Shown piece by piece: positions 24,640-59,457 of a stretch of 64,000 nt of DNA. The DNA is taken from the NCBI GenBank assembly GCA_017452445.1, contig JAFTMH010000003.1, forward strand, positions 186,001-250,000, given 5' to 3'. The stretch's first letter is position 1; every line of letters begins with the position of its first letter. This DNA comes from Clostridia bacterium (lineage in GTDB: Bacteria > Bacillota > Clostridia > Christensenellales > UBA1242). The position numbers were made by a program, and so were the translations under genes. A model generated the notes under the pieces. It was not told the DNA's origin. It did no database searches and was given only the letters and a program-made list of their open reading frames with translations.

Positions 24640-24790
24640 AAATATCTCAATTGTTGTCAATTTTCAAAAATTTGACAACAGTTGACAACAAAAGCCCCAT
24701 TTAAACCCACCAAAGCACCTACTTTTCCCACTTAAAATCATCTAAACTCGCCTAAAACCGAACATCAAGTGTTGTCAGGAAGAAATTTAG
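24640..24790. repeat. Left arm-type integrase-binding region
   Basis: Contains AATTGTTGTCAATTTT and TTTGACAACAGTTGACAACA, then a stretch with CATCTAAACTCGCCTAAAAC. The reverse complement of the right-end region 37108-37250 carries closely related words (TTGACAACAATTGACAACAG; CATCTAAACCC; CCGCCTAAAAT), so the island has imperfect terminal inverted repeats. Directly repeated TTGACAACA words suggest arm sites for the integrase. No gene is seen here. Confidence 0.65.
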
Positions 24791-24844
24791 TTAAATTTGA
24801 TGAAATTATGCAAATTTATGTTATAATGGTTTTGAGGTAAACCT

Positions 24845-25885
24845 ATGAAAAAGAAGTTTGAAACATTTATGGATAAATTTAATACATATTTTGCAATACC
24901 TGTTATTGTTTGTTTTTTATTATCATCATTAAGCATTAAATATGCTCAATCGATATTTGGAGTTATACTAAATGTTGCTATTTGTTTAGTAGTGGTGATT
25001 TTCCTAAGCATTCTTGTTTATAAATTAATTAAAGGAACATTAAAAAATAGTAAATTAATTTGGCCTTTAGTGGTGTCTTTGGTATTGATTATATTATCAT
25101 TAATAGTTTTAAAAACAGACGCAAAGACTGCGGATACTTTATTTATTTCAGGTGTGATTTTTTTTGAAATTTATTCATTATTTGTTATTATTAATGGCTG
25201 CTTATCTGAAAATACAAATATAACAAAAACTATTATATTCTCATTGATTTTTGTTATTTTAGGATACATATCTATTTACGCTAGTTCTTATGGTTTGGAA
25301 GATAATACTATATTTAATTCATTAATTGTGTTGTTTTCGTCCATTATTGGAGGAGGAATAACACTTGTAGGTGTTGCTTGGACTATAAATCATAATAAAT
25401 TAGAAAAAAGAAAAGAAGAAGAACAAAAAGCAAAACCTGTTGTATTTATTTGTGATCCAGAAACAACAGATATAAGGTTGGATAATTCAATAAAAAAGGT
25501 GTTATATAGTAACAATGCTAGAGGATCTTTAAAAAAATCAGAAGCATCGAAATCGGCATATGTTTTGCCTCAAATTTTACTTGATAATTCCGATTATTCA
25601 CATGTGGTAGTAAGAGGATTTAGAGTTAATAATGATTTTCATATATATGATTATGGTCAAGTATTGCCCAAAAATGAATCTCTATCACTATTAAATAATT
25701 TCAGATTTAAGTATGAAGATACAATAAATTATGTGGCAATATTAATGCAAGATATGTTAGATAATATTTATGAACTAGAAGTAAATTTTTCAATAATTAA
25801 AAAAAGAAAAGATAATATTATTTTTATTAATAGTGGAATTGAAATAAAGAAAACTACATTGGGTATTACAGCAAAAGACATTTAA
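24845..25885 (+). CDS. Island membrane protein of unknown function
   Basis: 346 residues. Six hydrophobic segments fill the first 190 residues; the last contains IIGGGITLVGVAWTI. A cytosolic domain of about 150 residues follows, beginning with a Lys/Glu stretch. Proteins of this plan (membrane bundle ending in a glycine-rich helix plus soluble domain) are frequent in mobile islands, but no function is established to my knowledge. It has its own extended -10 promoter (TG-T-TATAAT at 24822). AT-rich codon use marks it as island cargo. Confidence 0.75.
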   Translation: MKKKFETFMDKFNTYFAIPVIVCFLLSSLSIKYAQSIFGVILNVAICLVVVIFLSILVYKLIKGTLKNSKLIWPLVVSLVLIILSLIVLKTDAKTADTLFISGVIFFEIYSLFVIINGCLSENTNITKTIIFSLIFVILGYISIYASSYGLEDNTIFNSLIVLFSSIIGGGITLVGVAWTINHNKLEKRKEEEQKAKPVVFICDPETTDIRLDNSIKKVLYSNNARGSLKKSEASKSAYVLPQILLDNSDYSHVVVRGFRVNNDFHIYDYGQVLPKNESLSLLNNFRFKYEDTINYVAILMQDMLDNIYELEVNFSIIKKRKDNIIFINSGIEIKKTTLGITAKDI

Positions 25886-25906
25886 AAAATAATTTTTGCT
25901 AGTTTT

Positions 25907-26413
25907 TTATGGTTCAACGATGTTTATATCTAATCCTTTTTGTTTTGCTTTTTCAATGGTTTGTTTAGTTCCACCTGGCGAACCGTTATAAACTGCGATT
26001 AACAAAGAAGAATTTTCAATCATATAGTTGTTTCGTTTCATCATACAACCACTAAAATACTTAACCGAAGATACATAAGTAACTTTATCTGCTTTAGATA
26101 ATATGTTTTGATATCTTTTTAAACTGTATCCAAACCATTTTTCGGTTTGATTGGTGCAGGGAATAGCACACTCTAGCTCTATGTTAGAGTGTTTTTTCTT
26201 TAGTTCCAAAATGATTTCTGCACAAATTATATCTGAGCCCAATGCCATGCCTGAGATAAAGTATTTATAACCACTTTTAATTGCTTGTTTTATTGTTTTT
26301 CTTAATCTTATTTTAAACAGCAAAAATTTAACACCCTGTTCATTGTATCTCCATGGCAATTTGCTTAGTCTATGACCTGTAAAGCAACATGTATAGAATT
26401 TTCTATTATCCAT
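25907..26413 (-). CDS. SLOG-family (DUF1273/YpsA-like) protein
   Basis: 168 residues. FTGHRLSKLPW near the start, then SGMALGSDIICAE and AIPCTNQTEKW, and a C-terminal LLIAVYNGSPGGTKQTIEKA with the glycine-rich nucleotide-binding turn, are SLOG features. SLOG domains bind nucleotides or their derivatives and occur often in defence and stress loci. It is divergent from the XRE gene, and the shared 85-base interval carries two palindromes, so the two are probably regulated together. Confidence 0.78.
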   Translation of the reverse strand: MDNRKFYTCCFTGHRLSKLPWRYNEQGVKFLLFKIRLRKTIKQAIKSGYKYFISGMALGSDIICAEIILELKKKHSNIELECAIPCTNQTEKWFGYSLKRYQNILSKADKVTYVSSVKYFSGCMMKRNNYMIENSSLLIAVYNGSPGGTKQTIEKAKQKGLDINIVEP

Positions 26414-26426
26414 AATCCTATTATAG

Positions 26427-26471
26427 TATAGAATATTCTATAGTTCAAGTATTTATATAGAAAATTCTATA
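26427..26471. promoter_or_regulatory. Two palindromic operators between SLOG and XRE genes
   Basis: TATAGAATATTCTATA (26427-26442) is a perfect 16-base palindrome; TATAGAAAATTCTATA (26456-26471) differs only at its centre. Their centres are 29 bases apart. They lie between divergent genes, one of which encodes an XRE repressor, the natural candidate to bind them. Confidence 0.78.
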
Positions 26472-26498
26472 AAATTATAGTGAAAGAGGTGCGATACT

Positions 26499-26702
26499 AT
26501 GGATTTTATAGATATTCTAAAAGATATAATGATAGATTTTGACTTAAATCAATCTCAACTTGCTGAAAAGATAGGGTTAAAGCAAAGTCAAGTTAGTGAG
26601 TGGTTAAAAGGTAAAAGTAAACCTGGATACGACAGTATCAAAGCGATTTGTTTGGCATTAGATATTTCTGCAGATAGATTACTTGGTTTAGATGAAAAAT
26701 AA
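26499..26702 (+). CDS. XRE-family helix-turn-helix regulator
   Basis: 67 residues, a single HTH_3 domain: LNQSQLAEKIGLKQSQVSEWLKG, then PGYDSIKAICLALDISADRLLGL. It is a Cro/CI-like dimeric repressor by family. The two palindromes immediately upstream are likely its operators, giving autoregulation and control of the SLOG gene. AAAGAGGTG precedes the ATG. Confidence 0.88.
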   Translation: MDFIDILKDIMIDFDLNQSQLAEKIGLKQSQVSEWLKGKSKPGYDSIKAICLALDISADRLLGLDEK

Positions 26703-26805
26703 AATGTTTTCTTTTATAAATTTATACAAATTATATAAAAGTGTGTTATAATATATCTAACTTTTATGTTAAATGAGAATATAATCATAAATTAAAGGAG
26801 AAATT

Positions 26806-27492
26806 ATGTCAAAAGGTATAATATATGTATGTTCAACAATAGTCCCGGGGTTAATAAAAATTGGTAGGACTACTAATTTTCAGGCAAGAATGAGGAACCT
26901 AGAAGAAAATGGTTATCGCAATGTCGGTGGATTACAAAGACAATTTGCAATAGAAATAGAAAACCATGAAGACGTTGAACAACTGTTAGATGACATTTTT
27001 GCAAAAAGTCGAGTTGGTAACACTGAGTTATTTTCATTAGATTTAAACAAAACGATACAATTATTATCTTCATTGTCCGGTAAACAAGTTTATCCTACAA
27101 CAGAAACAAAGCAAGAAGTTTTTGAAAAAGCAACAGAGATTGTGCAAAGTCAAATGATTCCAGATGGTGAGTATGTACTAAGTAGAAAAATAAAAGAAAC
27201 AAACCAAACTGTTAATGCTAAAATGACAGTTGCTAATGGTATAATTATTCTTAAAAAGGGTTCAAAAATTGCACCTTATAAAGAATATAAAACTCCAACT
27301 TGGATTTCTGCGAGAAAAACAATGCAGTTAGACGATAGCGGTATTTTACTAGAAGATATTGAATGTTCTGCGCCTTCAATGGCGGCTGCATTAGTTGTTG
27401 GACATGCGGCAAACGGTTGGATAACTTGGAAAAATAAAGATAATCAACCTATAGATGTTTATCGAAAAAAACCTCTTGATGAAAATGATTAA
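26806..27492 (+). CDS. GIY-YIG (T5orf172/MUG113-like) protein with DUF4357 C-terminus
   Basis: 228 residues. The N-terminal part, GIIYVCSTIVPGLIKIGRTTNFQARMRNLE, matches the Y-[I/V]-x10-K-I-G-R-T pattern of the T5orf172 branch of GIY-YIG nucleases. The C-terminal 60 residues (SAPSMAAALVVGHAANGWITWKNK) match DUF4357. Such two-domain proteins are common beside restriction systems and on islands. Nuclease activity is plausible but not shown. A TTATAAT -10 lies near 26740 and AAAGGAG precedes the ATG. Confidence 0.8.
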   Translation: MSKGIIYVCSTIVPGLIKIGRTTNFQARMRNLEENGYRNVGGLQRQFAIEIENHEDVEQLLDDIFAKSRVGNTELFSLDLNKTIQLLSSLSGKQVYPTTETKQEVFEKATEIVQSQMIPDGEYVLSRKIKETNQTVNAKMTVANGIIILKKGSKIAPYKEYKTPTWISARKTMQLDDSGILLEDIECSAPSMAAALVVGHAANGWITWKNKDNQPIDVYRKKPLDEND

Positions 27493-27537
27493 CGCAAAAT
27501 TTTATCATTTAACATAATTTTTAAATATATAAATTTA

Positions 27538-27567
27538 AAAGTCGATATAATTTGTAATATCGACTTT
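27538..27567 (+). terminator. Hairpin after the GIY-YIG gene
   Basis: AAAGTCGATAT pairs with ATATCGACTTT around AATTTGTA. The T run is broken (GTTTTA), so strength is uncertain. Confidence 0.65.
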
Positions 27568-27577
27568 GTTTTATAGT

Positions 27578-27614
27578 AAAATGTCTTGACAATTGTCAAG
27601 ACATTTTGTAATAT
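27578..27614 (+). promoter_or_regulatory. Promoter with a perfect 30-base palindromic operator
   Basis: TTGACA at 27586 and TAATAT at 27609 are separated by 17 bases. A palindrome of 30 bases (27578-27607), with core TTGACAATTGTCAA and flanks AAAATGTC/GACATTTT, covers the whole -35 and spacer. A protein bound there would block RNA polymerase. The first gene downstream encodes a Phd/YefM-like protein, a family that binds palindromes. Confidence 0.82.
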
Positions 27615-27641
27615 AGTTACATGTTTAACGGAGGCGTGTTT

Positions 27642-27839
27642 ATGAAATATAATTACAATGATATGTCAAAAACCTATAGTATAAGAGAATTGAGCAGAGG
27701 TAAAACTTCTGAAGCTGTTACAAGTTCATCTAATCAACCTGTTTTGATAATAAAAAATAGTAAACCTGTCAGCATTGTTATAGATTACAATGAATACCTA
27801 AAAATTAAAAAAATTTTAGAAAATAAAGTAAAAATTTAA
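27642..27839 (+). CDS. Phd/YefM-like DNA-binding protein at the head of the RM operon
   Basis: 65 residues from the ATG 6 bases after ACGGAGG; the frame opening at 27621 contains that site. TYSIRELSRGKTSEAVTSSSNQPVLIIKNSKPVSIVIDYNEY matches the Phd/YefM fold (cf. TAR..L..LL..V....P..IT..G.P.AVL). Family members are antitoxins that repress their own promoters. No toxin gene follows; instead two DNA methyltransferases do, so it may be a controller of the restriction-modification operon acting at the palindrome upstream. Confidence 0.7.
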   Translation: MKYNYNDMSKTYSIRELSRGKTSEAVTSSSNQPVLIIKNSKPVSIVIDYNEYLKIKKILENKVKI

Positions 27840-27875
27840 ATAATATATGTTATAATGAAAATGAAGGAAAAGAAT

Positions 27876-28583
27876 ATGGATAAATTAAATTTTAAAAATG
27901 TTGATTATAAAATTTTAATAAAAGAATTGAAAAAAAATAAAGTTAAAGTTGATGCTGTTATAACAGATCCCCCATATGGAGTTAGTAGGAAACACCAATT
28001 AGGATTTAGTAATATGGGACGTGCAGGTATGGATTATGGTGAATGGGATTATAATTTTAATCAAAAAGAATGGATTAGATTATGTGCTCCACTTATTAAG
28101 GATGGAGGATCTATGATAATCTTTAATGATTGGAAAAACTTTTCATTTATAGTACAAGAATTAGATAAACAAGGTTTTTCAATGAAAGATGTTATTAGAT
28201 GGGTAAAACCAAATCCAATGCCAAGGAACACAAACAGAAGATATGTTGGCGATTTTGAATTGGCAATATGGGCAGTTAAAGATGGTGGTAAGTGGACATT
28301 TAATAAACCAGACGATGTGTCATATTTAAAACCAATATATCAATGTGCAAGTGTTAGTGGTGGAGAAAAGAGAATTCATCCAACTCAAAAGCCTTTAAAG
28401 TTAATGGAAGATATAATTAAAGTTCATACTAACGAAGGAGATATTGTTTTAGATTTATTTGCCGGATCAGCAACTACTGCAGAAGCTTGTTTAAAGAATA
28501 ATAGAATATTTATTGGTTCAGAATTAGATGAAACATATTATAAAAAGGCAATGGAGAGATTAAAATGTTATATTCGCCAATAA
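27876..28583 (+). CDS. DNA methyltransferase, beta class (type II RM)
   Basis: 235 residues from the ATG at 27876, preceded by AAGGA; an in-frame ATG at 27855 is less well placed. Catalytic TDPPYGV (motif IV) is near residue 32 and the SAM-binding LDLFAGSATTAEA (motif I) near 198, so the order is IV then I, the beta class that makes N6-methyladenine or N4-methylcytosine. RIHPTQKPLKLME precedes motif I as usual. It overlaps the second methyltransferase by 19 bases. The pair probably methylates the two strands of an asymmetric site. Confidence 0.88.
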   Translation: MDKLNFKNVDYKILIKELKKNKVKVDAVITDPPYGVSRKHQLGFSNMGRAGMDYGEWDYNFNQKEWIRLCAPLIKDGGSMIIFNDWKNFSFIVQELDKQGFSMKDVIRWVKPNPMPRNTNRRYVGDFELAIWAVKDGGKWTFNKPDDVSYLKPIYQCASVSGGEKRIHPTQKPLKLMEDIIKVHTNEGDIVLDLFAGSATTAEACLKNNRIFIGSELDETYYKKAMERLKCYIRQ

Positions 28584-29443
28584 ATTATCAAGGAAATAAG
28601 TCTAGAATTAGTGAAAAAATAATTAGTTTAATTCCGTCAAATATAGAAAATATACATGAAATCTTTTGCGGAAGTGCTATTATTTCTCTTGCTTCTAATA
28701 TAAAAAATGTTTATCTTAATGATAAAAACACTTATATTCTAGAGTTATTAAGGTATTTTCAAGAGAACAAAGCGGAAAACATAATTAAAATTGCTGATAG
28801 TATAATAAATGAATATGGGTTGACTAATACTTTCTATGAAGGAAAAGAAAAATATCCAGAAAAAAGACATGAGGGTCTTTCTCTATATAATAAAGATTCA
28901 TTCAACAAATTAAAAGAAGATTACAACAAAGATAAAGATATCAATAAATTATTTGTATTATTGATATATGGTTTTAATCATTATTTAAGGTTTAATTCTA
29001 AAGACGAATATAATGTTCCGGTAGGCAAAACTGATTTTGTAGATTCGTTAAGAAAAAGAACTGTTGATTATTGTTTAGCTATACAAAAAAAATCAATAGA
29101 AATAACAAATCTTGATTTTAGAGATAGTTCTCTTTATAAAGATAAAGGACTAAATGATTTATATTACTTTGATCCACCCTATCTTATAACGGTAGCACCA
29201 TACAATAGTTTTTGGTCAGAAAAAGATGAAATAGATTTATTGCATATACTTGACAATCTAAACGACAAAGGACAAAAATTCATGTTGTCAAATGTTATAG
29301 AGTCAAATGGTAAAGAAAACAAAATATTAAAGGAATGGATGAAGAAATATAATGTCCATTATATTAAAAGACAATACCTGAATTCAAGTTATCATAAAAA
29401 AAATCTAAGTAATGCTATTGAGATAGTGATAACAAATTTTTAA
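28565..29443 (+). CDS. DNA adenine methyltransferase, D12 class
   Basis: 292 residues. SAM-binding NYQGNKSRI at the start and EIFCGSAIISL, then catalytic YYFDPPYLITVAPYN near residue 200, are in the Dam/D12 order (I then IV). This class makes N6-methyladenine. A long insertion with a FNHYLRFNSKDEYNVPVGK segment is typical of target-recognition regions of this group. The start lies within the preceding methyltransferase gene, so the two are co-translated. Confidence 0.88.
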   Translation: MLYSPINYQGNKSRISEKIISLIPSNIENIHEIFCGSAIISLASNIKNVYLNDKNTYILELLRYFQENKAENIIKIADSIINEYGLTNTFYEGKEKYPEKRHEGLSLYNKDSFNKLKEDYNKDKDINKLFVLLIYGFNHYLRFNSKDEYNVPVGKTDFVDSLRKRTVDYCLAIQKKSIEITNLDFRDSSLYKDKGLNDLYYFDPPYLITVAPYNSFWSEKDEIDLLHILDNLNDKGQKFMLSNVIESNGKENKILKEWMKKYNVHYIKRQYLNSSYHKKNLSNAIEIVITNF

Positions 29444-29452
29444 GGAGGAATT

Positions 29453-31147
29453 ATGGGAACTAGTGGCGACAGAGAAGGTTTTAAAGTTTTTTCTATAAAT
29501 ACAACAGTTAGAAATCCTAAAAGGAATACTGATTTTTTAAATTATTTTCAAGAGTTTGATGGAAAGCCATTTACATCTGAATTGTCCGAAAAATACTTTT
29601 TTAATTTAATAAAATATGGAATATATAGGGTTTCTGATATTCCTGAAAGTGTAAAGAACAAAATGGAGAACGGAGAAGAATTAACCGCGAAAGAAGTTCA
29701 TGATGCAATACATAATAATCCACAGGCAACAGGTTTGCATGGAAGAGTAATGACTCAATTAAGAGCTATGAAAGATCAAGGTTTTTTGATGTTTGAACCT
29801 GTAAAAAGAGGTTTAAATAAAATTTATATTACTCCGCTCGGCTGGTCGCTAATTAAAGGAGATGAAGATCCAACAGTTGTTTATACTAAAGCAATGCTAG
29901 GAATGCATGCGAATAGTCCAATAAGATCAAAACTATTTAACGAGTCAAGACCATTCTTAAATACTTTGTTTGTTATTGATGGTGTGAATAAAAAATGGAA
30001 GGATCTTGGGAATGAACCTAAAGGTATTCTAAAACATGAATTTGGTACTTTTGTATTAAGTATGAAAGACTGTAACTATAAAACAGCTATAGAAAATATT
30101 ATTAATTACAGAAGAAAATATAAATATGAAGCAAACTATAAAGTTTTGAAAGAGTTTTTAATTCAAAATGATGTTTTGCCAATTAAAGAAGAAAGTTTAT
30201 TAAGTGATTATCCAGACGACGTGTTTAGAAAATTTGAAATGACAGGTTTAATTGTTAAAAGAGGTGCTTTTAATTATATTTATTATGATTTTTCTAAATA
30301 CAATATTGAAAAAATTAATACGATTTTACTTTCATATAAAGATTATAAGTTTGAGCAATTTAATAATGTAAAAGATTATTATAATTATTTAGCAAACATA
30401 GATATTCCTTGGTGTCAAGATGAAAAAATAAGGTCTAAAATTGTTGAATCTAAATCGGCAATTTTAAAGATAAAATTAGAAGATGCTCTTACATTAGAAC
30501 AAAAAGAGTCAATGCTAGATAGGATGTTTTATAACCATGCTTTAGAAAATGCAGTAACATCTTCTAAAATTGAGTTTATTATAAATGAGTTAAAGATTTT
30601 ATCAGGAGCTATTAAGGAATCGTCAAAAATAAACGATATTTCTGAACCTTTAAGATTAGAATATTTATTAGCATTATTATTAGGTAAAAAATACGGAACA
30701 AAAGGACTTGTTTCTAATATTATTTATAATGAAGATGGCAGACCATTACATTATGCTCCATCAAAGAAATGCGACATTATTTATCATCATAAGGAAGGAT
30801 CATACATAATCGAACCAACTATGCAGCGTGGCAAATCTCAGGTGTTAAACAATGAAACTACAAATGTGGCAAGGCATATGAGAGAAGAAAGTAAGAGAGG
30901 TATTTACTATAGGCTATCAATGGTTGCCCCATATGTTCATCCAGATGTTGTAGATTATTTTCAATACAGGTCTGACAAAGAAAAGTGTTGCTTGATACCA
31001 CTAAATATAGATTACATTGTAAAATTGATAATAGAAAGTGATACTATTCGAGAATTAAATATTGCTTTTGACGAGATGAAAGAATTATTATTAAATTTAA
31101 AAGTAGAAGAATATTCTGATTTAATCAATAATTTTAAATTGAAATAA
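29453..31147 (+). CDS. AlwI-like type IIS restriction endonuclease
   Basis: 564 residues; AAGGAGG precedes the ATG. The N-terminal FSINTTVRNPKRNTDFLNYF matches the start of AlwI-family enzymes. The C-terminal third holds a probable PD-(D/E)xK core (KCDIIYHHKEGSYIIEPTMQRGKSQ). Two methyltransferases of different classes directly upstream are what a type IIS enzyme with an asymmetric site needs. The recognition sequence cannot be read from the protein. A terminator closes the operon. Function assignment rests on context plus the N-terminal resemblance. Confidence 0.75.
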   Translation: MGTSGDREGFKVFSINTTVRNPKRNTDFLNYFQEFDGKPFTSELSEKYFFNLIKYGIYRVSDIPESVKNKMENGEELTAKEVHDAIHNNPQATGLHGRVMTQLRAMKDQGFLMFEPVKRGLNKIYITPLGWSLIKGDEDPTVVYTKAMLGMHANSPIRSKLFNESRPFLNTLFVIDGVNKKWKDLGNEPKGILKHEFGTFVLSMKDCNYKTAIENIINYRRKYKYEANYKVLKEFLIQNDVLPIKEESLLSDYPDDVFRKFEMTGLIVKRGAFNYIYYDFSKYNIEKINTILLSYKDYKFEQFNNVKDYYNYLANIDIPWCQDEKIRSKIVESKSAILKIKLEDALTLEQKESMLDRMFYNHALENAVTSSKIEFIINELKILSGAIKESSKINDISEPLRLEYLLALLLGKKYGTKGLVSNIIYNEDGRPLHYAPSKKCDIIYHHKEGSYIIEPTMQRGKSQVLNNETTNVARHMREESKRGIYYRLSMVAPYVHPDVVDYFQYRSDKEKCCLIPLNIDYIVKLIIESDTIRELNIAFDEMKELLLNLKVEEYSDLINNFKLK

Positions 31148-31171
31148 AGAGAGTATATTCTCTCTTTTTTT
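31146..31171 (+). terminator. Intrinsic terminator of the RM operon
   Basis: AAAGAGAG pairs with CTCTCTTT around TATATT, followed by Ts. Confidence 0.85.
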
Positions 31172-31289
31172 AATTTAAAAGCTTATTCTATTGATAATTA
31201 GGGTTAGTAAGCGATGTTTCAATTAAAGATGCACCTCTATTTTTGACAAACAAAGACAAAAATCAACAAAATACGATTGTTTTCGCTAT

Positions 31290-31317
31290 TTGAGATTTTG
31301 GAATGTTGTGCTATAAT
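31290..31317 (+). promoter_or_regulatory. Promoter of the island non-coding region
   Basis: TTGAGA at 31290, 16-base spacer, TATAAT at 31312 with extended TG at 31309. The predicted start, near 31324, coincides with the first base of the closing stem of the RNA below. Confidence 0.72.
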
Positions 31318-31323
31318 GGCAAA

Positions 31324-31431
31324 GGTTAACAAGAAAAAATTTTAATAGTTTATAGAGAAAGAGCTACCAATATCGATAGTTCTTTTTCTTATTTGTAAGA
31401 GATGAATTTAATTCATCTTTATTTGTTAACC
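31324..31431 (+). ncRNA. Three-stem structured RNA domain
   Basis: GGTTAACAA (31324-31332) pairs perfectly with TTGTTAACC (31423-31431), closing a junction that holds two hairpins. The first has 13 pairs (31354-31366 with 31377-31389, two G-U); the second has 8 pairs (31400-31407 with 31411-31418). There is no ORF. The domain starts where transcription should start and is followed directly by the hairpin array. No known RNA family is recognised. Confidence 0.7.
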
Positions 31432-31471
31432 AGAAAAGAAATTAATAATAAAGAAAAGAAACCTTAAATTT

Positions 31472-32164
31472 TATCGGTTTGGAAGATGGTATCAATTCGG
31501 TGGTGATATAATTAAAAACTTTTGCCGCGTGGACAATGGTGTCCATGCGACTGTACTATAATAAAAATATTTCCCGCTGTGACAGACGGTGTCACTGCGG
31601 TGGTTGTATAATGTAAAAAAAATTAGTGTTGCACCAAACGCTGGTACAGCACTTGTATTATAATAAATTAAATTTTCCGATACGACAAACGATGTCGTAT
31701 CGCTTATGATAATATAAAATAAATTTAGTTCGCGGTATCAGATGGTGATACTGCGGTTGTGTTACAATGCTGAAAAGAATTTATTTCCGTTGTAACAGAC
31801 GGAGTTACAGCGAGAGTTGTAAAATATGTAAAAAAAGTTACACCGCTCTACCAAATGGTGGTGAAGCGGTTATGTAATAATATTACTAAAATTAAATGAA
31901 AAGTTTTAGTGATAGGACAGACGGTATCCGAGCGGTAGTGATAGAATCAATTCAGAAAATACAACCGATGTGTCAGATGGTGATATATCACTCGTGTTAT
32001 ATTTACAAAAAATATTTCCCGTTGGGAACAATGTGGTTACAACGGTTATTGTAAAATATTTAAAAAATTTAGAGTGATTGACCAAACGGTGGTAAATCAC
32101 TAATGCTACAATGTATAAAATATTTCTCAGTGTTCAGACGGTGAACATGCGGATATGCAATAAT
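31472..32164 (+). repeat. Array of 13 hairpin/-10 units (undescribed architecture)
   Basis: Thirteen units, 50-66 bases apart. Each has a stem of roughly 8-12 pairs whose sequence differs from unit to unit while staying largely self-complementary, around a loop motif of consensus ARAYGG. Loop hexamers start at 31484, 31534, 31584, 31636, 31687, 31740, 31797, 31853, 31919, 31975, 32029, 32084 and 32136. In every unit a -10-like hexamer (four TATAAT; also TACAAT, TAAAAT, TAATAT, TAGAAT, TATATT, AATAAT) begins exactly 23 bases later, with the extended TG in eight units. The hexamer-to-hexamer gap of 17 equals a sigma-A spacer, yet ARAYGG is no -35 consensus. A-rich linkers, often ending ATTTCC, join the units. 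Example stems: CGATACGACA/TGTCGTATCG and CGCGGTATCA/TGATACTGCG. Confidence 0.9.
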
Positions 32165-32168
32165 AAAA

Positions 32169-32190
32169 AAGGAGGTGTAAGAGAATGTAA
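32169..32190 (+). promoter_or_regulatory. Perfect Shine-Dalgarno leading to an AUG-UAA start-stop
   Basis: AAGGAGGTG (32169-32177), nine bases complementary to the 16S rRNA tail, is followed after 7 bases by ATG at 32185 and at once by TAA. It sits a few bases after the last unit of the array. A ribosome loaded there would hold without making a peptide. The 300 bases beyond it contain no gene. Confidence 0.7.
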
Positions 32191-32310
32191 AGTTAATTTA
32201 TAAAAATCTTGATTGCTATGGAAAATCCATAAAAGTCGATAATATTGGATTGTTTTATAGTAAGCAGGATAAGGATTGTATGCATTTGACCATGTTTTAG
32301 TGCTATAAAT

Positions 32311-32331
32311 GCCCTAAAATAAAGGGTTTTT
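32311..32331 (+). terminator. Weak terminator candidate downstream of the array
   Basis: GCCCT pairs with AGGGT (one G-U pair) around AAAATAA, followed by five Ts. If used, RNA from 31324 would be about 1 kb. Confidence 0.4.
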
Positions 32332-32383
32332 CGCGTATACACTTTTTAAAACCTCATGTTTGCAAATTTGCATACACTCCCCG

Positions 32384-32460
32384 AGTTCCGGCAAGTGGGA
32401 ACCCCACTTCCATTTTGGCTAAATTAAGCCACTTTTACATTGCTCGATGCATGTAAATTT
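32384..32460 (+). other. Hairpin-rich leader of the excisionase/integrase genes
   Basis: Three inverted repeats lie close together: AAGTGGG/CCCACTT around AAC near 32391-32410, GGCT/AGCC around AAATTA near 32417-32431, and TTTACAT/ATGTAAA near 32434-32457. They may regulate excisionase and integrase translation or be protein-binding DNA sites. Confidence 0.4.
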
Positions 32461-32488
32461 TAGAATTTATAGAAAGGAGAAACTGATT

Positions 32489-32503
32489 ATGAAGGAGAAA
32501 TAA
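32489..32503 (+). CDS. Four-codon upstream ORF overlapping the excisionase ribosome site
   Basis: ATG AAG GAG AAA TAA, with its own AAAGGAG upstream. Codons 2 and 3 form the ribosome site of the gene starting at 32508, 4 bases after the stop, so translation of the mini-ORF and of the excisionase are linked. Confidence 0.45.
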   Translation: MKEK

Positions 32504-32507
32504 CTTA

Positions 32508-32759
32508 ATGTTAAAACAAGAAGATTTACAAGCAGAGATGTTGATTTCTGCAGAAGCTAAAAGACTTGCAGATAGATATAACAAAGATTATTTAGACTGT
32601 GAGGATTTAATGAAAATTACAGGTCTTGGCAAAGGCAATGTAAGAACACTTATGAATAGATATGATTTCCCAACAACCAATGTCGGCAAGCGCAAAGTTA
32701 TTAGTGTAATGGCATTCGCAAGATGGGCCTACTTTCAAGACAACAGGAGGAAAAACTAA
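32508..32759 (+). CDS. xis: Excisionase-like small DNA-binding protein
   Basis: 83 residues. The core CEDLMKITGLGKGNVRTLMNRYDFPTTNVGKRKVISVMAFARWAYFQ is a winged-helix/MerR-like fold typical of excisionases next to Tn916-type integrases. It should bend attachment DNA and favour excision. Its stop overlaps the integrase start (TAATG), so the two proteins are made together. A short N-terminal helix rich in Ala and Glu precedes the fold. Confidence 0.75.
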   Translation: MLKQEDLQAEMLISAEAKRLADRYNKDYLDCEDLMKITGLGKGNVRTLMNRYDFPTTNVGKRKVISVMAFARWAYFQDNRRKN

Positions 32760-34210
32760 TGGCAAAGAAAAGAAAAAATTCCAGACGAGCAAATGGCGAA
32801 GGAAGCATTGTTCAAAGAAAAGATGGTCGTTGGTGTGGAGTTGTAACTCTGGGATATAAACCTGATGGCAAGATAAATAGAAAGTCGGTTTACGGGCATT
32901 CACAAGCAGAAGTTTTAGAGAAAATGAGTATACTAAAACATAGACTTGTAACTGGTCCACAAGTATCTTCAACAACAGCTTTGGTTGGTGAAACTATGAA
33001 AAATTGGTTGCGAATATTTAAGAAACCAATGGTATCATCTCGCACATTTGAAAGCAATATTAGAACATTCAAAAATCACATTCTTCCAGCGATTGGAAAT
33101 ATGAAAATTAATGAAGTTAACACAAACATTGTCCAAGCGATTTTGACAAAATCTTTGCAAGACCATAAAGGTAGGTCTAACACACCAAAGAGAATAAAGT
33201 TTTTGTTAAATCAATTTTATGAGCATTTAATTGAGCAAGGACTTGCTTATGATAATCCTACCCTAAAATGTAAAGTGAGTAATAGATATAAAAAGACTTA
33301 CATTGATAGCAAAGGTCAACACAAGAACAATGAAAACTACAAAGCGATTCCTGTTGCTGAAAGAGCAAGATTTATTCGTGCACTTGATGATGGTCCAGAT
33401 ATTATTAAACCACTTTCACTTGTTATGATGTTGGCTTCACTTCGTATTGGTGAAGCACTAGCTTTGAAATGGGAAAATATAGACTTTGAAAAAGGTGCTT
33501 TATTTGTTGAGCAAGGTTTAACCGAAGATGTTGAGTTTGATAACGACCTTAACATTGTTTGCAGAAAGAATATTATTTCAAGCACTAAAACATCTTGCAG
33601 TAAAAGAGCAATTAAAATGCCACAACTAGTAATTGATGCTTTGCTACAATGGCGAAAAATACAATGGTGCAAAGAACAAGTTAAAGGTAAAACTTTAACA
33701 AAGTCCACAAATCTTGTGTTTTGCAACGATGATGGCTCAATACGCAGTTATGACGCAACTCGTCGAGTATTTGATAGGTTTGCCAAGAAACACGGTTTTA
33801 GGCAAGAATTTGGGCTTCATTGCCATATGTTAAGACAAACATTTTCAAACATGCAAATTGAGAATAAAAGAAATATAAAAGATGTTCAGCATTTGCTTGG
33901 ACACAAAGACGCAAAGACTACCCAATTGCACTATAACTCAGTAATCGACCAAGAACTCGACTACGAAGGTGCAGAACTGTTGGATAGTCTTTTTAATGAC
34001 ACAACACTATATGATGGTGAAGAACACATAAAAAAAGATGTCCCTGCCTATCACATAGACAACAACACCTTTAACAACGAAACAGTCGAACAAAAACCAA
34101 TAACCTACGAAGAAATGACCGATGATGAACTCGATCGACAATATGAAGAACTAAAACGCCAACGAGAAGAACGAAGAAAACGCAGAAAAGAAAAAGATTT
34201 TGAGATGTGA
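32759..34210 (+). CDS. int: Tyrosine-family site-specific integrase
   Basis: 483 residues from the ATG behind AGGAGG; the frame opening at 32723 reads back into the excisionase gene and is rejected. The N-terminal arm-binding domain shows GEGSIVQRKDGRWCGVV, followed by a core-binding SAM-like domain. Catalytic residues are visible: Arg in ASLRIGEAL, Lys in STKTSCSKRAIKMP, His-x-x-Arg in HMLRQTF, His in LGHKDAKTTQ and nucleophile Tyr392 in LHYNS. The C-terminal 90 residues are charged and probably disordered. It inserts and excises the island at the tRNA-Thr core sequence. Confidence 0.93.
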   Translation: MAKKRKNSRRANGEGSIVQRKDGRWCGVVTLGYKPDGKINRKSVYGHSQAEVLEKMSILKHRLVTGPQVSSTTALVGETMKNWLRIFKKPMVSSRTFESNIRTFKNHILPAIGNMKINEVNTNIVQAILTKSLQDHKGRSNTPKRIKFLLNQFYEHLIEQGLAYDNPTLKCKVSNRYKKTYIDSKGQHKNNENYKAIPVAERARFIRALDDGPDIIKPLSLVMMLASLRIGEALALKWENIDFEKGALFVEQGLTEDVEFDNDLNIVCRKNIISSTKTSCSKRAIKMPQLVIDALLQWRKIQWCKEQVKGKTLTKSTNLVFCNDDGSIRSYDATRRVFDRFAKKHGFRQEFGLHCHMLRQTFSNMQIENKRNIKDVQHLLGHKDAKTTQLHYNSVIDQELDYEGAELLDSLFNDTTLYDGEEHIKKDVPAYHIDNNTFNNETVEQKPITYEEMTDDELDRQYEELKRQREERRKRRKEKDFEM

Positions 34211-34276
34211 TAAATTTATAAAAAATATAACAATTTTATTAATTATATGCTATACTTATTAAATGGAGAGTTAATT

Positions 34277-36382
34277 ATGAATAATTTAGATAAAAATTTA
34301 CTATTTATAGAATCGGCACAAGATTATCAAAAAGATATTTTGGCACAAGAGTTTATAGATGTTCTTAACGAGAAGGTTTCAAACATAAAAGATGCAAGAA
34401 TTTATTATAATTATCCATTTTCAGTATATGCCGCAAAATTAAATGTCCCAAGCTTTGTGTGCATATCTTCAAAGTTTGGTATTTTGATAGTAAATTGTTT
34501 TACTAATATATCAAAAGAAGAACTTGAAAAAGCGATTTCTAAAACTGAAAAAATGGACAATGAAATTTACTCAAAAATTCTTTCAAAATCCTCGCAAAAA
34601 TTAGTAAAGAAGAAAAGAGAATTGGCGTTTAGTATCCAAAGTATATTATATTCTGACGATGAAAATAATTGGGGAATAGAAACAGATGTCCCAATTTTTA
34701 CAAAAAATGAAAATTTGGTTACATATTTAAACGAACTAGATAATCAATTAACTGAGAGTCAAATTGATGAACTAATGTCTATATTAGATGGCAGTTATAA
34801 TATGTTAAAGACTTCGGAGAGAGAAAATATTCATACTGAAGGAAGTCGTGGTGCAGTATTAAAGAATATTGAAGATAAAATAGCATTGCTTGATAATAAT
34901 CAAAGACATGCGGCAATTTCGTATATAAAAGGACCGCAAAGAATTAGAGGACTTGCAGGTACGGGTAAAACTATTATTTTATGTATGAAAGCTGCTTATT
35001 TACACTATAAAAATCCTAATGCTAAGCTCTTATATACTTTTTCGACTAAAAGTTTATATGATTTAGTTAAGTCTTTAATAACTAGGTTTTATTTAGAGGC
35101 ATCTAATGGAAGTATGCCCAACTTTGATAATATTGATATATTACATGCATGGGGTGGAGTTAATGTGCCTGGAGTTTATTACAATGCGTGTGTAGATAAT
35201 CATTGTGAAGTAAAGAAAGTTAATGATGTAACAACATTTAAAAATCTTGACTATTTTGATATGGTTTGCAGCTCTTTGCTAAGAGATTCTAATGGAAAAT
35301 TACAGCCGAAATATGATCACGTGTTTATTGATGAGGGGCAGGATTTCTTACCATCCTTTTATCAGTTATGTCGATGCTTAACAAAGGAAGACTGCATGGT
35401 ATGGTGTTATGATGATTTGCAAAATATTTTTAATGTGGAAATCCAGGATGCTATAAAGACATTTGAAAATAAAGATTTAGGATTTGAAGGAATTAATTTA
35501 AATAAATTGTCTGAGGATATTGAATTCTTAAATAATGATATAGTATTATCAACAACTTATAGAAATCCTAAAGAAATCTTAGTTTTATCTCATTCAATAG
35601 GTTTTGGCATATACAATAAAGTTTTAATTCAATCTTTAGAGAATAATAGTCTTTGGGAAGATTTTGGTTATAAAGTGTTAAAAGGAGATTGTTCTGAAGG
35701 CTCTCTAATGGAAATTGAGAGACCGTCTATAAACAGTCCTATAACAAGCAATAATATTATTCCTTTAGATGATATGATTATAACAAAATCATGTGAAAGT
35801 ACTAACGATGTTATTAATTACATTTGCGAATCTATTTATAAAAATGTTACAGAGGAAGAACTTCTACCTACTGATATTTGTGTAATATGTATGGATGATT
35901 ATAGTAATAAAAGCTATTTATTAGAGATTGAAAAAAGACTAAATGAAATGAATATTCAAACATTCAATTTGTCTTCAAATAATTATTTAAAAGGATTTAA
36001 AAAAGAAGGCTGTGTATCATTAACTAGTGTGTATAAGGCTAAAGGTAATGAATGTGGCATGGTTTATGTTATTGGTTGTGAAGTTTTTGAAAACAACACT
36101 CAAAATGTAAATATAAGAAATAGATTTTTTACTGCATTTACTAGATCAAAATTATGGCTAAGAATAGTTGGTACTAACATGGAAAATAGTAAATTGTTCG
36201 AAGAAATCCGTAAAACTAAAGAAAATAGTTTTATTTTAAAATTTAAAAATACTCAAAGAAATGTTATAAAAAGAGACAAAGAACGAAAAGAAAAGAAAGT
36301 TAAAAATGCTATGCAAACAATCCTTTCGTCCGGTTTAAGTTTAGATGAATTAAAAAAATTACTAGAGGAAGGTTTGTCTTAA
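34277..36382 (+). CDS. UvrD-like superfamily 1 helicase with N-terminal extension
   Basis: 701 residues from the ATG at 34277 (GGAG 10 bases upstream). Walker A is GLAGTGKT near residue 225, motif II VFIDEGQD near 352, motif III-IV area TTYRNPKEIL, and motifs V and VI are SVYKAKGNE and FTAFTRSKLW. The 200-residue N-terminal region has a VPSFVCISSKFGILIVN core like a NERD/nuclease fold, but the usual acidic and Lys residues are not evident. The DUF2290 gene starts one base after its stop. Such islands often carry helicase-based anti-phage modules; that role is inferred. Confidence 0.82.
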   Translation: MNNLDKNLLFIESAQDYQKDILAQEFIDVLNEKVSNIKDARIYYNYPFSVYAAKLNVPSFVCISSKFGILIVNCFTNISKEELEKAISKTEKMDNEIYSKILSKSSQKLVKKKRELAFSIQSILYSDDENNWGIETDVPIFTKNENLVTYLNELDNQLTESQIDELMSILDGSYNMLKTSERENIHTEGSRGAVLKNIEDKIALLDNNQRHAAISYIKGPQRIRGLAGTGKTIILCMKAAYLHYKNPNAKLLYTFSTKSLYDLVKSLITRFYLEASNGSMPNFDNIDILHAWGGVNVPGVYYNACVDNHCEVKKVNDVTTFKNLDYFDMVCSSLLRDSNGKLQPKYDHVFIDEGQDFLPSFYQLCRCLTKEDCMVWCYDDLQNIFNVEIQDAIKTFENKDLGFEGINLNKLSEDIEFLNNDIVLSTTYRNPKEILVLSHSIGFGIYNKVLIQSLENNSLWEDFGYKVLKGDCSEGSLMEIERPSINSPITSNNIIPLDDMIITKSCESTNDVINYICESIYKNVTEEELLPTDICVICMDDYSNKSYLLEIEKRLNEMNIQTFNLSSNNYLKGFKKEGCVSLTSVYKAKGNECGMVYVIGCEVFENNTQNVNIRNRFFTAFTRSKLWLRIVGTNMENSKLFEEIRKTKENSFILKFKNTQRNVIKRDKERKEKKVKNAMQTILSSGLSLDELKKLLEEGLS

Positions 36383-37051
36383 ATGAACAGGTCAAAATAT
36401 TTAACAAATATTGAGGAATGTTATAACCTTTTAAAATCATTTAGTATACTGAGTGATAAAACATTTCATTATAAACAAACTAATGATAGGAAATTTAGTG
36501 TTGAATTTTATCAAAATATCCATTGTGATTGCAACATAACAAAGTATCGTTCTATTTTAAAAAATTATGATTATGATTTTATATTAAAAGATAATTCAAT
36601 TTTTTCGTTTAGCGTTTTATTTTCTGATAATAAAGTTTCAAAAATATCAATGTATTATTATCAAAATCCTTATTCTTTCCCATCCGTTGAAGACTATGAT
36701 AAATATAAAGAAAATCCAGAATATTTTGAACAAAAGTGTGATGAAGCGGAACTAACTAATAATTGGACGATTATAAGATATGACTATTCTGAAAGTGAAG
36801 AAGATTATAAGGAATTAATTCATTACCCCGCGCACTTACATATAGGAAACAACAATGAAATTAGGTTACCATTTAATATGCTTATAACGCCATTAAGCTT
36901 TATAAATTTTGTTGTTATGCAAGTTTATCCTAATATTTGGACTAAGTATTATCAGAGTCATAGTGATTTGATAAATCTAAGGAATTATGATGAAGATATT
37001 TTGTTAAACTTTATAAGTGCAAATGATGATAGGATATATAAAATAAAATAA
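36383..37051 (+). CDS. DUF2290-family protein
   Basis: 222 residues. The C-terminal HYPAHLHIGNNNEIRLPFNMLITPLSFINFVVMQVYPNIW matches the conserved H-x-H and R-x-P core of DUF2290. The function is not established. The start codon directly follows the helicase stop (TAAATG), so the two are co-translated and probably act together. The gene ends in a terminator just before the right end of the island. Confidence 0.75.
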   Translation: MNRSKYLTNIEECYNLLKSFSILSDKTFHYKQTNDRKFSVEFYQNIHCDCNITKYRSILKNYDYDFILKDNSIFSFSVLFSDNKVSKISMYYYQNPYSFPSVEDYDKYKENPEYFEQKCDEAELTNNWTIIRYDYSESEEDYKELIHYPAHLHIGNNNEIRLPFNMLITPLSFINFVVMQVYPNIWTKYYQSHSDLINLRNYDEDILLNFISANDDRIYKIK

Positions 37052-37078
37052 AAAGACTGATTAATTTCAGTCTTTTTT
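37050..37078 (+). terminator. Intrinsic terminator after the DUF2290 gene
   Basis: AAAGACTGA pairs with TCAGTCTTT around TTAATT, followed by Ts. Confidence 0.85.
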
Positions 37079-37107
37079 CTTGCAAAAATCATTAAATTTT
37101 ATGAAAT

Positions 37108-37250
37108 AAATGTTGTACTACAAATTTGACAACAAACAGGGTGATTTTAGGCGGTTTTTGAAGGGTTTAGATGAATAATTTTTTGAGTTGGAAATTTGAG
37201 TTAATTTTAAGAGTGAATTTTTGTGAAAACTGTTGTCAATTGTTGTCAAA
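37108..37250. repeat. Right arm-type integrase-binding region
   Basis: TTTGACAACA near 37126 and ACTGTTGTCAATTGTTGTCA near 37229, with GGCGGTTTTTGAAGGGTTTAGATG between. Reverse-complemented it resembles 24640-24790. A sequence ATAG-TTCGAAT-CTAT near 37260 resembles a decayed T arm. No gene is present. Confidence 0.65.
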
Positions 37251-58269: not shown

Positions 58270-59457
58270 ATGGAACTTTTGGCACCTGCAGGAAATTTTG
58301 AGAAATTTTTGACAGCGATCCATTTTGGTGCTGATGCAGTTTATATGGCTGGTGGCAAATATGGACTTCGTGCTTTTGCTGGCAATTTTGACGAAAACGA
58401 AATGAGAAAAGCTGTTGAAATTGCTCACGAAAAAGGTCGCAAGGTTTATGTTACACTCAACATTATTGCAAGAGATGAAGATTTTGAAGAATTGCCAACT
58501 TATTTGCAATTTTTGCAAGAAATCAAAGTTGATGCTGTGATTGTTGCTGATGTGGGAATGGTTAGATTTATTCGTAAAAATGCACCAAATCTTGATGTGC
58601 ATGTGAGCACTCAAGCAAACATTATCAACTCACAATCGGCACTTCTTATGGCTGATATGGGCGTCAAAAGAGTGATTTTGGCGAGAGAATTGACACTCGA
58701 ACAAGTGGCAAACATACGCAAAAGCTTGCCAAAAGAAGTTGAAATTGAAGTGTTTGTGCATGGGGCTATGTGTATGGCTTATTCTGGAAGATGTTTGCTT
58801 TCAAACTACCTTACAGGCAGAGATGCAAACCGTGGCGAATGTGTGCAAGCGTGCAGATGGAAATATATGGTCAGAGAAGTTTCTCGTGATGAGAGTTTGG
58901 AAGTTGAAGAAGATGAGAAAGGATCTTATATTTTCAACTCTAAAGATTTGAACATGATTGAACACTTGCAAAAACTTAAAGATGCCGGTGTTGATAGTAT
59001 CAAGATTGAAGGCAGAATGAAATCACCATATTATGTTGCGACAGTTGTCAACGCATACAGAAAGGCGCTTGATATGTTGCCAAATCCACCAACTGAAGCG
59101 TTGTGCAGCGAACTTTGCAAGGCAAGTCATCGTCGTTATACAACAGGATTTTATTTCAAAGATGAAGAAAAGATTTACACACAAGATTCTATGCCTGTGC
59201 AAGAAAGCGAATTTGTTGCTGTTGTGACAAAAGATGTTGAAAATGGTATGGTAGAACTTGAGATGCGAAATAAATTTTCTGTTGGCGATCAACTTGAAAT
59301 GCTTTGCGTTGATGGCGATGCTTTTGGAAAGAAAATCGAAATTGAAAAAATTGTCAATTCAAAAGGTGAAGAAGTGGATTCTGCAAAAGTTGTGCAAGAA
59401 AAGGTTGTTGTGCCTTGCAAATTCAATTTAAAGGCAGGAGATATTTTGAGAAGATAA
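58270..59457 (+). CDS. Peptidase U32 family protein (TrhP-like)
   Basis: 395 residues from the ATG after AAGGAG; the frame opening at 58162 lies within pnuC. ELLAPAGNFEKFLTAIHFGADAVYM, VHGAMCMAYSGRCLLSNYLTGRDANRGECVQACRWKY and MKSPYYVATVVNAYR are U32 motifs with conserved Cys. Members such as TrhP hydroxylate tRNA uridine-34 using prephenate, which suits the neighbouring tRNA-modification gene tsaD; others were called proteases. The C-terminal beta domain of about 80 residues is present. Confidence 0.88.
   Translation: MELLAPAGNFEKFLTAIHFGADAVYMAGGKYGLRAFAGNFDENEMRKAVEIAHEKGRKVYVTLNIIARDEDFEELPTYLQFLQEIKVDAVIVADVGMVRFIRKNAPNLDVHVSTQANIINSQSALLMADMGVKRVILARELTLEQVANIRKSLPKEVEIEVFVHGAMCMAYSGRCLLSNYLTGRDANRGECVQACRWKYMVREVSRDESLEVEEDEKGSYIFNSKDLNMIEHLQKLKDAGVDSIKIEGRMKSPYYVATVVNAYRKALDMLPNPPTEALCSELCKASHRRYTTGFYFKDEEKIYTQDSMPVQESEFVAVVTKDVENGMVELEMRNKFSVGDQLEMLCVDGDAFGKKIEIEKIVNSKGEEVDSAKVVQEKVVVPCKFNLKAGDILRR

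Follow-up and report, generated by a model that had tools for sequence, protein, structure and literature searches.

The question raised by this locus is what may read a tandem series of promoter-like units, each of which carries a different palindrome. In the window, by which we mean the whole 64,000-nucleotide stretch of Clostridia bacterium DNA analysed in this study, 13 such promoter-operator units of about 50 bases each lie at 31465..32166 on the plus strand (Table 1). Behind this stands a broader open question, namely how satellite elements depend on helper elements that keep changing their regulators; if the interpretation proposed here is true, this locus answers it by placing promoters in tandem, one for each helper specificity. 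Based on sequence comparisons, we assign a probability of roughly three in four to the following interpretation: the 13 units are extended -10 promoter-like elements, their palindromes are likely bound by the dimeric HTH5 regulators of different helpers, and any active helper would switch on the genes encoding the likely excisionase (xis) and the integrase (int). HTH5, as well as sm62, sigR4, acc2, WH10, and sm85, are names coined in this analysis.

Each unit begins with an A/T stretch (AAAnTTTT in the wider unit set), continues with a palindrome in which 10-12 paired positions flank a five-base RAYGG centre, and ends with a -10-like hexamer (TANAAT-like). An earlier reading of the same DNA, made from the sequence only, had described a hexamer at a fixed distance from a near-constant loop motif despite variable spacing, and both points were confirmed: in 13 of 13 units the hexamer begins 22 bases past the first R of RAYGG (23 past the A of ARAYGG), the start-to-start spacing is 50-66 bases, and the centre departs from the motif in units 4, 5, and 11, which end in C, A, and T, respectively. 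Three bases 5' of the hexamer a T is found in all 13 window units, and the TG of an extended -10 element precedes the hexamer in eight of them. The left half of unit 2 carries a one-base deletion (covariance-model match of 49 bases). That the stems differ and are largely self-complementary also held, with 79.5% paired cells in the 13 units compared to 58.9 ± 2.7% after shuffling and a covariation score of 0.571 compared to 0.209 ± 0.036; none of the 500 shuffles reached the observed values, and slid registers paired only 31-45%. The centre had been judged not to be a -35 element, in agreement with the lack of a -35 box in all 13 window units, where the best match is ≤3/6; across all 292 array units the match is also ≤3/6 and below shuffled values, with two bases at this position fixed by the scan outside the window. 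A two-hexamer promoter scan of the array region gave 13 sites compared to 7.5 ± 3.0, and no plus-strand site uses the -10 of a unit. Among the 13 units, unit 6 alone was flagged by a terminator scan of the plus strand.

Table 1. Features of the array and of the element carrying it (window positions; centre start, first base of the five-base RAYGG centre).
Feature	Position	Strand	Palindrome	Centre start	-10-like hexamer	Remarks
Unit 1	31475..31512	+	31475-31499	31485	TATAAT 31507-31512	no close known ICE operator
Unit 2	31525..31562	+	minus one left base	31535	TATAAT 31557-31562	
Unit 3	31575..31612	+	31575-31599	31585	TATAAT 31607-31612	
Unit 4	31627..31664	+	31627-31651	31637	TATAAT 31659-31664	
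Unit 5	31678..31715	+	31678-31702	31688	TAATAT 31710-31715	perfect 10-bp palindrome
Unit 6	31731..31768	+	31731-31755	31741	TACAAT 31763-31768	ICE operator L152 at 1/16 mismatch
Unit 7	31788..31825	+	31788-31812	31798	TAAAAT 31820-31825	ICE operator L163 at 2 mismatches
Unit 8	31844..31881	+	31844-31868	31854	AATAAT 31876-31881	
Unit 9	31910..31947	+	31910-31934	31920	TAGAAT 31942-31947	symmetry weak
Unit 10	31966..32003	+	31966-31990	31976	TATATT 31998-32003	ICE operator L160 at 2 mismatches
Unit 11	32020..32057	+	32020-32044	32030	TAAAAT 32052-32057	
Unit 12	32075..32112	+	32075-32099	32085	TACAAT 32107-32112	
Unit 13	32127..32164	+	32127-32151	32137	AATAAT 32159-32164	ICE operator L151 at 1 mismatch
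Satellite element (IME), rough extent	24647..37250	.				short repeats TCAATTGTTGTCAA and AAATTTGACAACA near both ends; weak evidence, boundaries approximate
Satellite backbone (array, xis, int)	31238..34260	+				93.6% identity with L038; flanking genes on either side do not align
Likely excisionase (xis)	32508..32759	+				position before int; homologues likewise placed; first recognised mobility gene past the array
Tyrosine integrase (int)	32723..34210	+				Phage_integrase PF00589
Cargo: type II restriction-modification genes	27855..31147	+				N6_N4 methylase, D12 methylase, AlwI-type endonuclease

Searching relatives with a covariance model, as had been proposed from the sequence, revealed homologous units. 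The model built from the 13 units (R1) matched only those 13 in the 1.1-Mb genome at E ≤ 1 and gave matches in 20 of 101 genomes (own included), one of which, G090, lies outside the family, matched weakly (E 0.006), and was discarded after the unit scan found no unit there. A model of 68 units (R2) matched 33 of 112 genomes of the genus and, across the family of small-genome bacteria, 59 of 309 genomes in 15 of 42 genera, own included in both cases. Complementarity is kept in these homologues, the covariation score of the 68 units being 0.672 compared to 0.177 ± 0.016 after shuffling. A unit scan recorded 170 distinct units in 852,869 bases and none in mononucleotide-shuffled loci. Outside the window, the matrix used to find array units includes the -10 and fixes two bases of the centre, and the looser scan gives preference to a +22 distance, so that these features are partly built in by the method. 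Left out of the counts were L118 (by hand), units outside the window scoring below 22, minority-strand strays, a stray match at window position 59230, and L090 as a near copy of L085.

The window array lies in an integrated element of approximate ends, with int and a likely xis and with no conjugation machinery of its own found in it. Neither a T4CP nor a relaxase was present among the ten scanned proteins (24845-37051) or the window's protein-cluster members, a MobL relaxase was not found in the element by Pfam or protein clusters, and HTH5 was not found in the window's own genome. The likely xis gave no match in Pfam and NCBIfam searches. The integrase shares 93% identity across residues 1-442 with that of L041 and 97-98% with those of four relatives, of which L038 carries an array and L039, L040, and L042 carry none in the stretch examined; L042 is recorded as Candidatus Caccovivens, and several integrase-relative records come from animal guts. 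The array-bearing element is likely mobile. Defence-type cargo flanks the backbone on both sides (26806-37051), comprising a PDC-S57-like gene (T5orf172), the AlwI-type restriction-modification genes, and a UvrD-like helicase with a DUF2290 gene, and in L038 a type I restriction enzyme is encoded upstream of the array. As the window element carries restriction-modification defence genes, the interpretation proposed here, if true, would bear on how such genes spread.

A single unit of the same kind is found in ICEs of related genomes, where it directly precedes HTH5, a winged-helix regulator gene with a ribosome-binding site, and the conjugation operon. The typical gene order is a LexA-like S24 gene, sm62, one unit, HTH5, sigR4, acc2, MobL relaxase, T4CP, and a 1500-aa gene; exceptions are L085 and L090, which are without the later genes, and L083, L152, and L155, which are without a recognised sigR4. 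Pfam analysis of L076 assigned HTH5 to HTH_11 and other helix-turn-helix models, sigR4 to Sigma70_r4, MobL to PF18555, and T4CP to PF02534. Of the 15 HTH5 genes in the genus, 11 are preceded at a distance of 30-71 bases by a single unit that the scan detected. With the flanks of 31 of the 47 listed HTH5-like matches examined, 17 homologues showed one unit by the scan and 10 more by the looser scan (shuffle p ≤ 0.013 each), the unit of L159 was weak and not above shuffles (p 0.21), and three homologues (L100, the plus-strand HTH5 of L158, and L164) had no clear unit. Visual inspection gave the initial placement of the units of L097-L099, and the looser scan gave that of the units of L156, L157, and L159-L163. 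Palindromes of more distant HTH5 proteins have centres such as CCCAT and GGCAT, with a -10-like hexamer at +22 (a distance favoured by the scan); since these regulators have other centres, the RAYGG "loop" looks clade-specific. The looser scan of array gaps yielded 18 extra candidate units against a shuffle expectation of 1.75; some candidates contain CCCAT, GACAT, or GGCGT, and three have the common centre; those in L113 and L185 may be no units, and the one in L115 closely resembles, by eye, the ICE operator of L099.

In the ICE L153, the genes that follow the unit, down to xis and INT, share its strand, and given this and the 93% identity of the window integrase with that of L041, a contig equal in length to that of L153, the satellite genes look as if they were taken from such an operon. 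MobL relaxase is present in the ICEs as well as in other array-bearing IMEs. In several ICEs, a hairpin followed by a T run was seen by eye just upstream of the unit; the terminator scan of ICE L076 did not report it, the loop being longer than the scan allows. Querying the phage and plasmid collections with the HTH5 protein of L076 returned no hit at E 1e-5. The predicted HTH5 fold (pLDDT 75, pTM 0.50) had no match in the PDB below E 0.001, the best being BirA, with DriD, a WYL activator, ranking lower; such matches of a modelled fold would indicate a winged helix only and provide no evidence on activation versus repression.

Distances between ICE palindromes (inner 8 bases of each arm) were compared with distances between the eight recognition-helix residues of HTH5, a helix which varies visibly (VSxxTVxRH). 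Over 26 ICE pairs, the palindrome follows the HTH5 helix (rho 0.579, p 5e-4), the p-values given here being generous because some of these pairs are closely related. The correlation of the helix given the rest of HTH5 was 0.541 and that of the rest given the helix was -0.043, whereas whole HTH5 (0.279) was no better than LexA (0.335, p 0.005). Among the other genes (15-20 loci each, also for LexA), sigR4 reached 0.285 (p 0.019), sm62 0.156, acc2 0.149, T4CP 0.137, and MobL 0.118. An earlier set of 13 gave a helix rho of 0.726; in a sliding window along HTH5 in that set, SITADILS came first (0.695) and the recognition helix reached 0.651. For the seven loci with all genes, the values were 0.718 for the helix, 0.635 for MobL, 0.551 for T4CP, 0.524 for acc2, and 0.31 (p 0.12) for whole HTH5.

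Individual helices match individual arms: SKMTVRRH pairs with GTGTTCA (4/4), SRSTVKRH with GG(G or T)TCA (4/4), SRKTVVRH with GGGACA (2/2), and I at helix position 3 with TATCA (5/5). The minus-strand HTH5 of L158, outside the 26 pairs, has the helix CSKTVYRH and the palindrome CGTATGGACA with GGACA, which is what K at position 3 (as in SRKTVVRH) would suggest; L158 fits the link. A natural exchange was found between L077 and L099, in which HTH5 is 43.1% identical and the palindrome wholly different, with neighbours that are nearly the same (LexA-like protein and sm62 100%, acc2 98.6%, MobL 94.7%, and T4CP 96.0% identical); at the DNA level, identity is 99.4% as far as the unit start and, over the final 36 bases of HTH5 and beyond, 90.6%. 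The LexA-like protein was rejected as the reader of the arms because it is identical in these two loci though their palindromes differ, and sigR4, acc2, and MobL were likewise set aside after the coevolution and exchange comparisons. The sequence-only reading held that structure rather than arm sequence is selected, which made a dimeric operator seem unlikely. It was right in that arm sequence is not fixed; paired arms, however, do not prove a single-strand structure, since a protein site with two-fold symmetry whose specificity changes produces this pattern as well, and the doubt about a dimeric operator is not supported, as the arms in relatives follow the recognition helix of the regulator next to single units. 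Judging from these comparisons, covariation of the arms is likely due to their being read by a dimer: the palindrome of a symmetric dimer must change in both arms upon a change of specificity, which explains the covariation without a hairpin.

Units other than those of ICEs occur in satellites (IMEs), for which we recorded 64 loci, partly related, with 292 units; seven loci have one unit and 57 have two to thirteen. In the flanking sequence examined, HTH5 was found within 3.5 kb of the array in none of the 64 loci, nor was a mobility gene found within 3.5 kb upstream in any of them. Downstream, a recognised mobility gene lies within 3.5 kb in 46 of 64 loci and is on the same strand as the array in all 46, the loci being partly related; the first such gene is sm85 (14), acc2 (13), WH10 (10), xis (5), INT (2), or MobL (2). 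Of the 18 loci without one, 14 end within 650 bases of the array, and L074, L081, L181, and L186 do not. Array-bearing elements include tyrosine integrases and, in L068, a CcrB-like serine recombinase, so the array serves elements with different recombinases. The latter gene, encoding a CcrB-like large serine recombinase (L068:5300-6880), matched the NCBIfam model NF047343 below its cut-off.

The units of one array differ from each other more than expected. In 15 non-homologous arrays, none of the 301 within-array pairs agree (≤2 mismatches in 16 arm positions) compared to 6.64 expected when units are dealt out anew among arrays (p 6e-4); in all 46 arrays of at least three units, 1 of 797 pairs agrees compared to 35.8 expected, a figure inflated by related arrays. 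Copies produced by mere multiplication of units would agree. At the same time, array units resemble ICE operators. Of the 21 distinct ICE palindromes, arrays contain six without any mismatch (null 1.6% each), 12 when one mismatch is allowed (null 5.4%), and 15 when two are allowed (null 24%). Among the 292 array units, 41 are identical to a known ICE operator, 101 differ from one at no more than one position, and 145 at no more than two. Four of the 13 window palindromes (units 6, 7, 10, and 13) are ≤2/16 mismatches from a known ICE operator, and the other nine have none close. A tentative extension, which we consider somewhat less probable than not, is that satellites gain operator units, centre and arms together, by copying the master promoters of the ICEs they encounter and never take one specificity twice, in which case the array would be an OR gate and also a heritable record of the conjugative elements in circulation, with an arms race between regulators and operators that can be read from the sequence.

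According to the proposed mechanism, an active ICE would raise its HTH5 level, and an HTH5 dimer would bind the one matching satellite unit at about -44 to -20, replace the absent -35 contact, and activate transcription. RNA polymerase would start at the extended -10 and read through the remaining array into xis-int, after which the satellite would excise and be mobilised. The ICE presumably drives its own operon from one such promoter, and a satellite with many units may act as an OR gate detecting whichever helper is present. Such a gate makes sense given differing operators of absent regulators, with each -10 aimed at xis-int, as one helper would suffice. HTH5 would thereby act as an activator rather than a repressor.

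The principle of a helper activator is known from SGI1 and AcaCD. In the available part of that report (PMC5058578), the helper's master activator switches on satellite xis at SGI1 Pxis and other AcaCD-responsive IME promoters, which are without an obvious -35, have a -10 located 22-24 bp past the site, and show a class II-type profile. The window element is likewise an integrated int/xis element, with a unit without a -35 that is the same as in ICE promoters, and HTH5 would take the activator role. Unlike AcaCD, which is FlhDC-like and has a relative in SGI1 itself, HTH5 is a winged-helix protein and not FlhDC-like, and the part of that report available to us describes no array of differing specificities, in contrast to the up to 13 tandem sites found here (PMC5058578). 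Similarly, SetCD of SXT ICEs induces the int and RDF genes of MGIVflInd1, which is quiescent without a helper; this concerns one helper family, with no array described in the accessible portion of the source (PMC5704250). Among staphylococcal plasmids, as stated in the accessible sections of another study (PMC8136818), some have captured two or three oriT mimics that mostly belong to different subtypes and correspond to helper specificities, with a DNA-binding protein determining the specificity and a single residue switching it; those are oriT sequences, two or three in number, whereas the arrays described here are tandem promoters, up to 13. By analogy, our system likely works like SGI1/SetCD and collects like the oriT mimics, except that its regulator is of a different family and that as many as 13 inputs lie in tandem. 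The ICEs and many IMEs analysed here also carry MobL (PF18555) with a small upstream gene, as in pLS20 and other MOBL systems; that work, in the parts available, concerns oriT and the relaxosome and not a promoter unit (PMC5313138, PMC5675868). No MobL was found in the window element. No array of helper-responsive promoters was found among the top-ranked matches of literature searches for it or for MobL and Caccovivens, and the array of up to 13 different inputs appears to be new. The 21 natural operator variants with their recognition helices are material for reading a DNA-binding code, and, if the main interpretation is true, unseen helpers can be predicted from the DNA of a satellite, and the array points to an OR gate with many inputs that arose in nature.

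Among other explanations, two seem improbable to a similar degree. The array could be a decoy, in which the units titrate the regulators of incoming ICEs and damp the helper rather than sense it, as might be expected of many differing sites in an element where the regulator was not found. However, a decoy needs neither a -10 nor any particular orientation or placement by mobility genes, whereas the hexamer is kept in 13 of 13 window units and all 46 arrays with a recognised mobility gene downstream point at it; in addition, titration by a single site for each specificity would be slight. Alternatively, HTH5 or the LexA-like protein could repress through the palindrome; the site covers the -35 region and an S24 protein is encoded upstream in the ICEs, but the -35 is absent rather than covered, 13 promoters each with a different absent repressor would be always on, and the exchange between L077 and L099 leaves LexA identical while the palindrome differs.

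We consider it even less probable that the array is a set of oriT mimics as in the staphylococcal plasmids, with each palindrome allowing the relaxosome of another helper to mobilise the element. That explanation has the same logic, a known precedent, and the location of units before relaxase genes in many IMEs in its favour. In 15 of 19 ICEs, acc2 is preceded at a distance of 28-94 bases by a conserved GAAGGGGCA-type motif (pattern picked by eye), for example at about 2340 in L089 and about 3860 in L039, and this motif is a candidate oriT of MobL elements. The motif is separate from the unit, about 1 kb away, which would argue against oriT mimicry; its occurrence near only 4 of 14 sm85 and none of 13 acc2 genes of array-bearing IMEs counts in the other direction. 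By the pattern used, it was not found in the window element. Moreover, the ICE palindrome follows the HTH5 helix more than MobL or acc2, and the -10 geometry would have no role in an oriT.

Hairpins formed by RNA or single-stranded DNA find little support in the data, and we regard them as scarcely probable. The sequence-only reading had listed promoters with hairpin-shaped -35 regions, a long multi-hairpin RNA, and single-strand recombination sites; of the first, the promoter-like array stands and the hairpin is not supported, as the arms follow the recognition helix of a protein, and the other two found no support, the Rfam 15 scan of the window having returned only tmRNA and a tRNA and no match to the array. 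The strong covariation is what a hairpin would produce as well. Pairing within one strand, as in attC-like sites or N4-like hairpin promoters, should favour G.T over A.C mismatches, and such an excess is present in window-type arrays (window, L038, L066, and L186, which are related; 30 vs 10, p 0.002) but is seen neither among the remaining arrays (78 vs 65, p 0.32) nor among the ICE sites (2 vs 3). Least probable of all is neutral divergence, in which duplicated units drifted and identical copies were lost by recombination, since, even if it would likewise leave few identical units per array, it leaves unexplained the kept complementarity, the recurrence of palindromes in unrelated arrays, and their equality with ICE operators.

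Several short features surround the array. Just upstream, at 31290-31431, a sigma-A-like promoter (TTGAGA, 16, TATAAT) precedes a segment whose two ends form an inverted repeat (GGTTAACAAG... / ...TTGTTAACC), in a stretch that L038 also has; the segment is perhaps a small RNA or a leader. Right after unit 13, at 32170-32190, AGGAGG is followed by the start-stop pair ATGTAA, and another short frame (ATGAAGGAGAAATAA) lies at 32489-32503, just 5' of xis.
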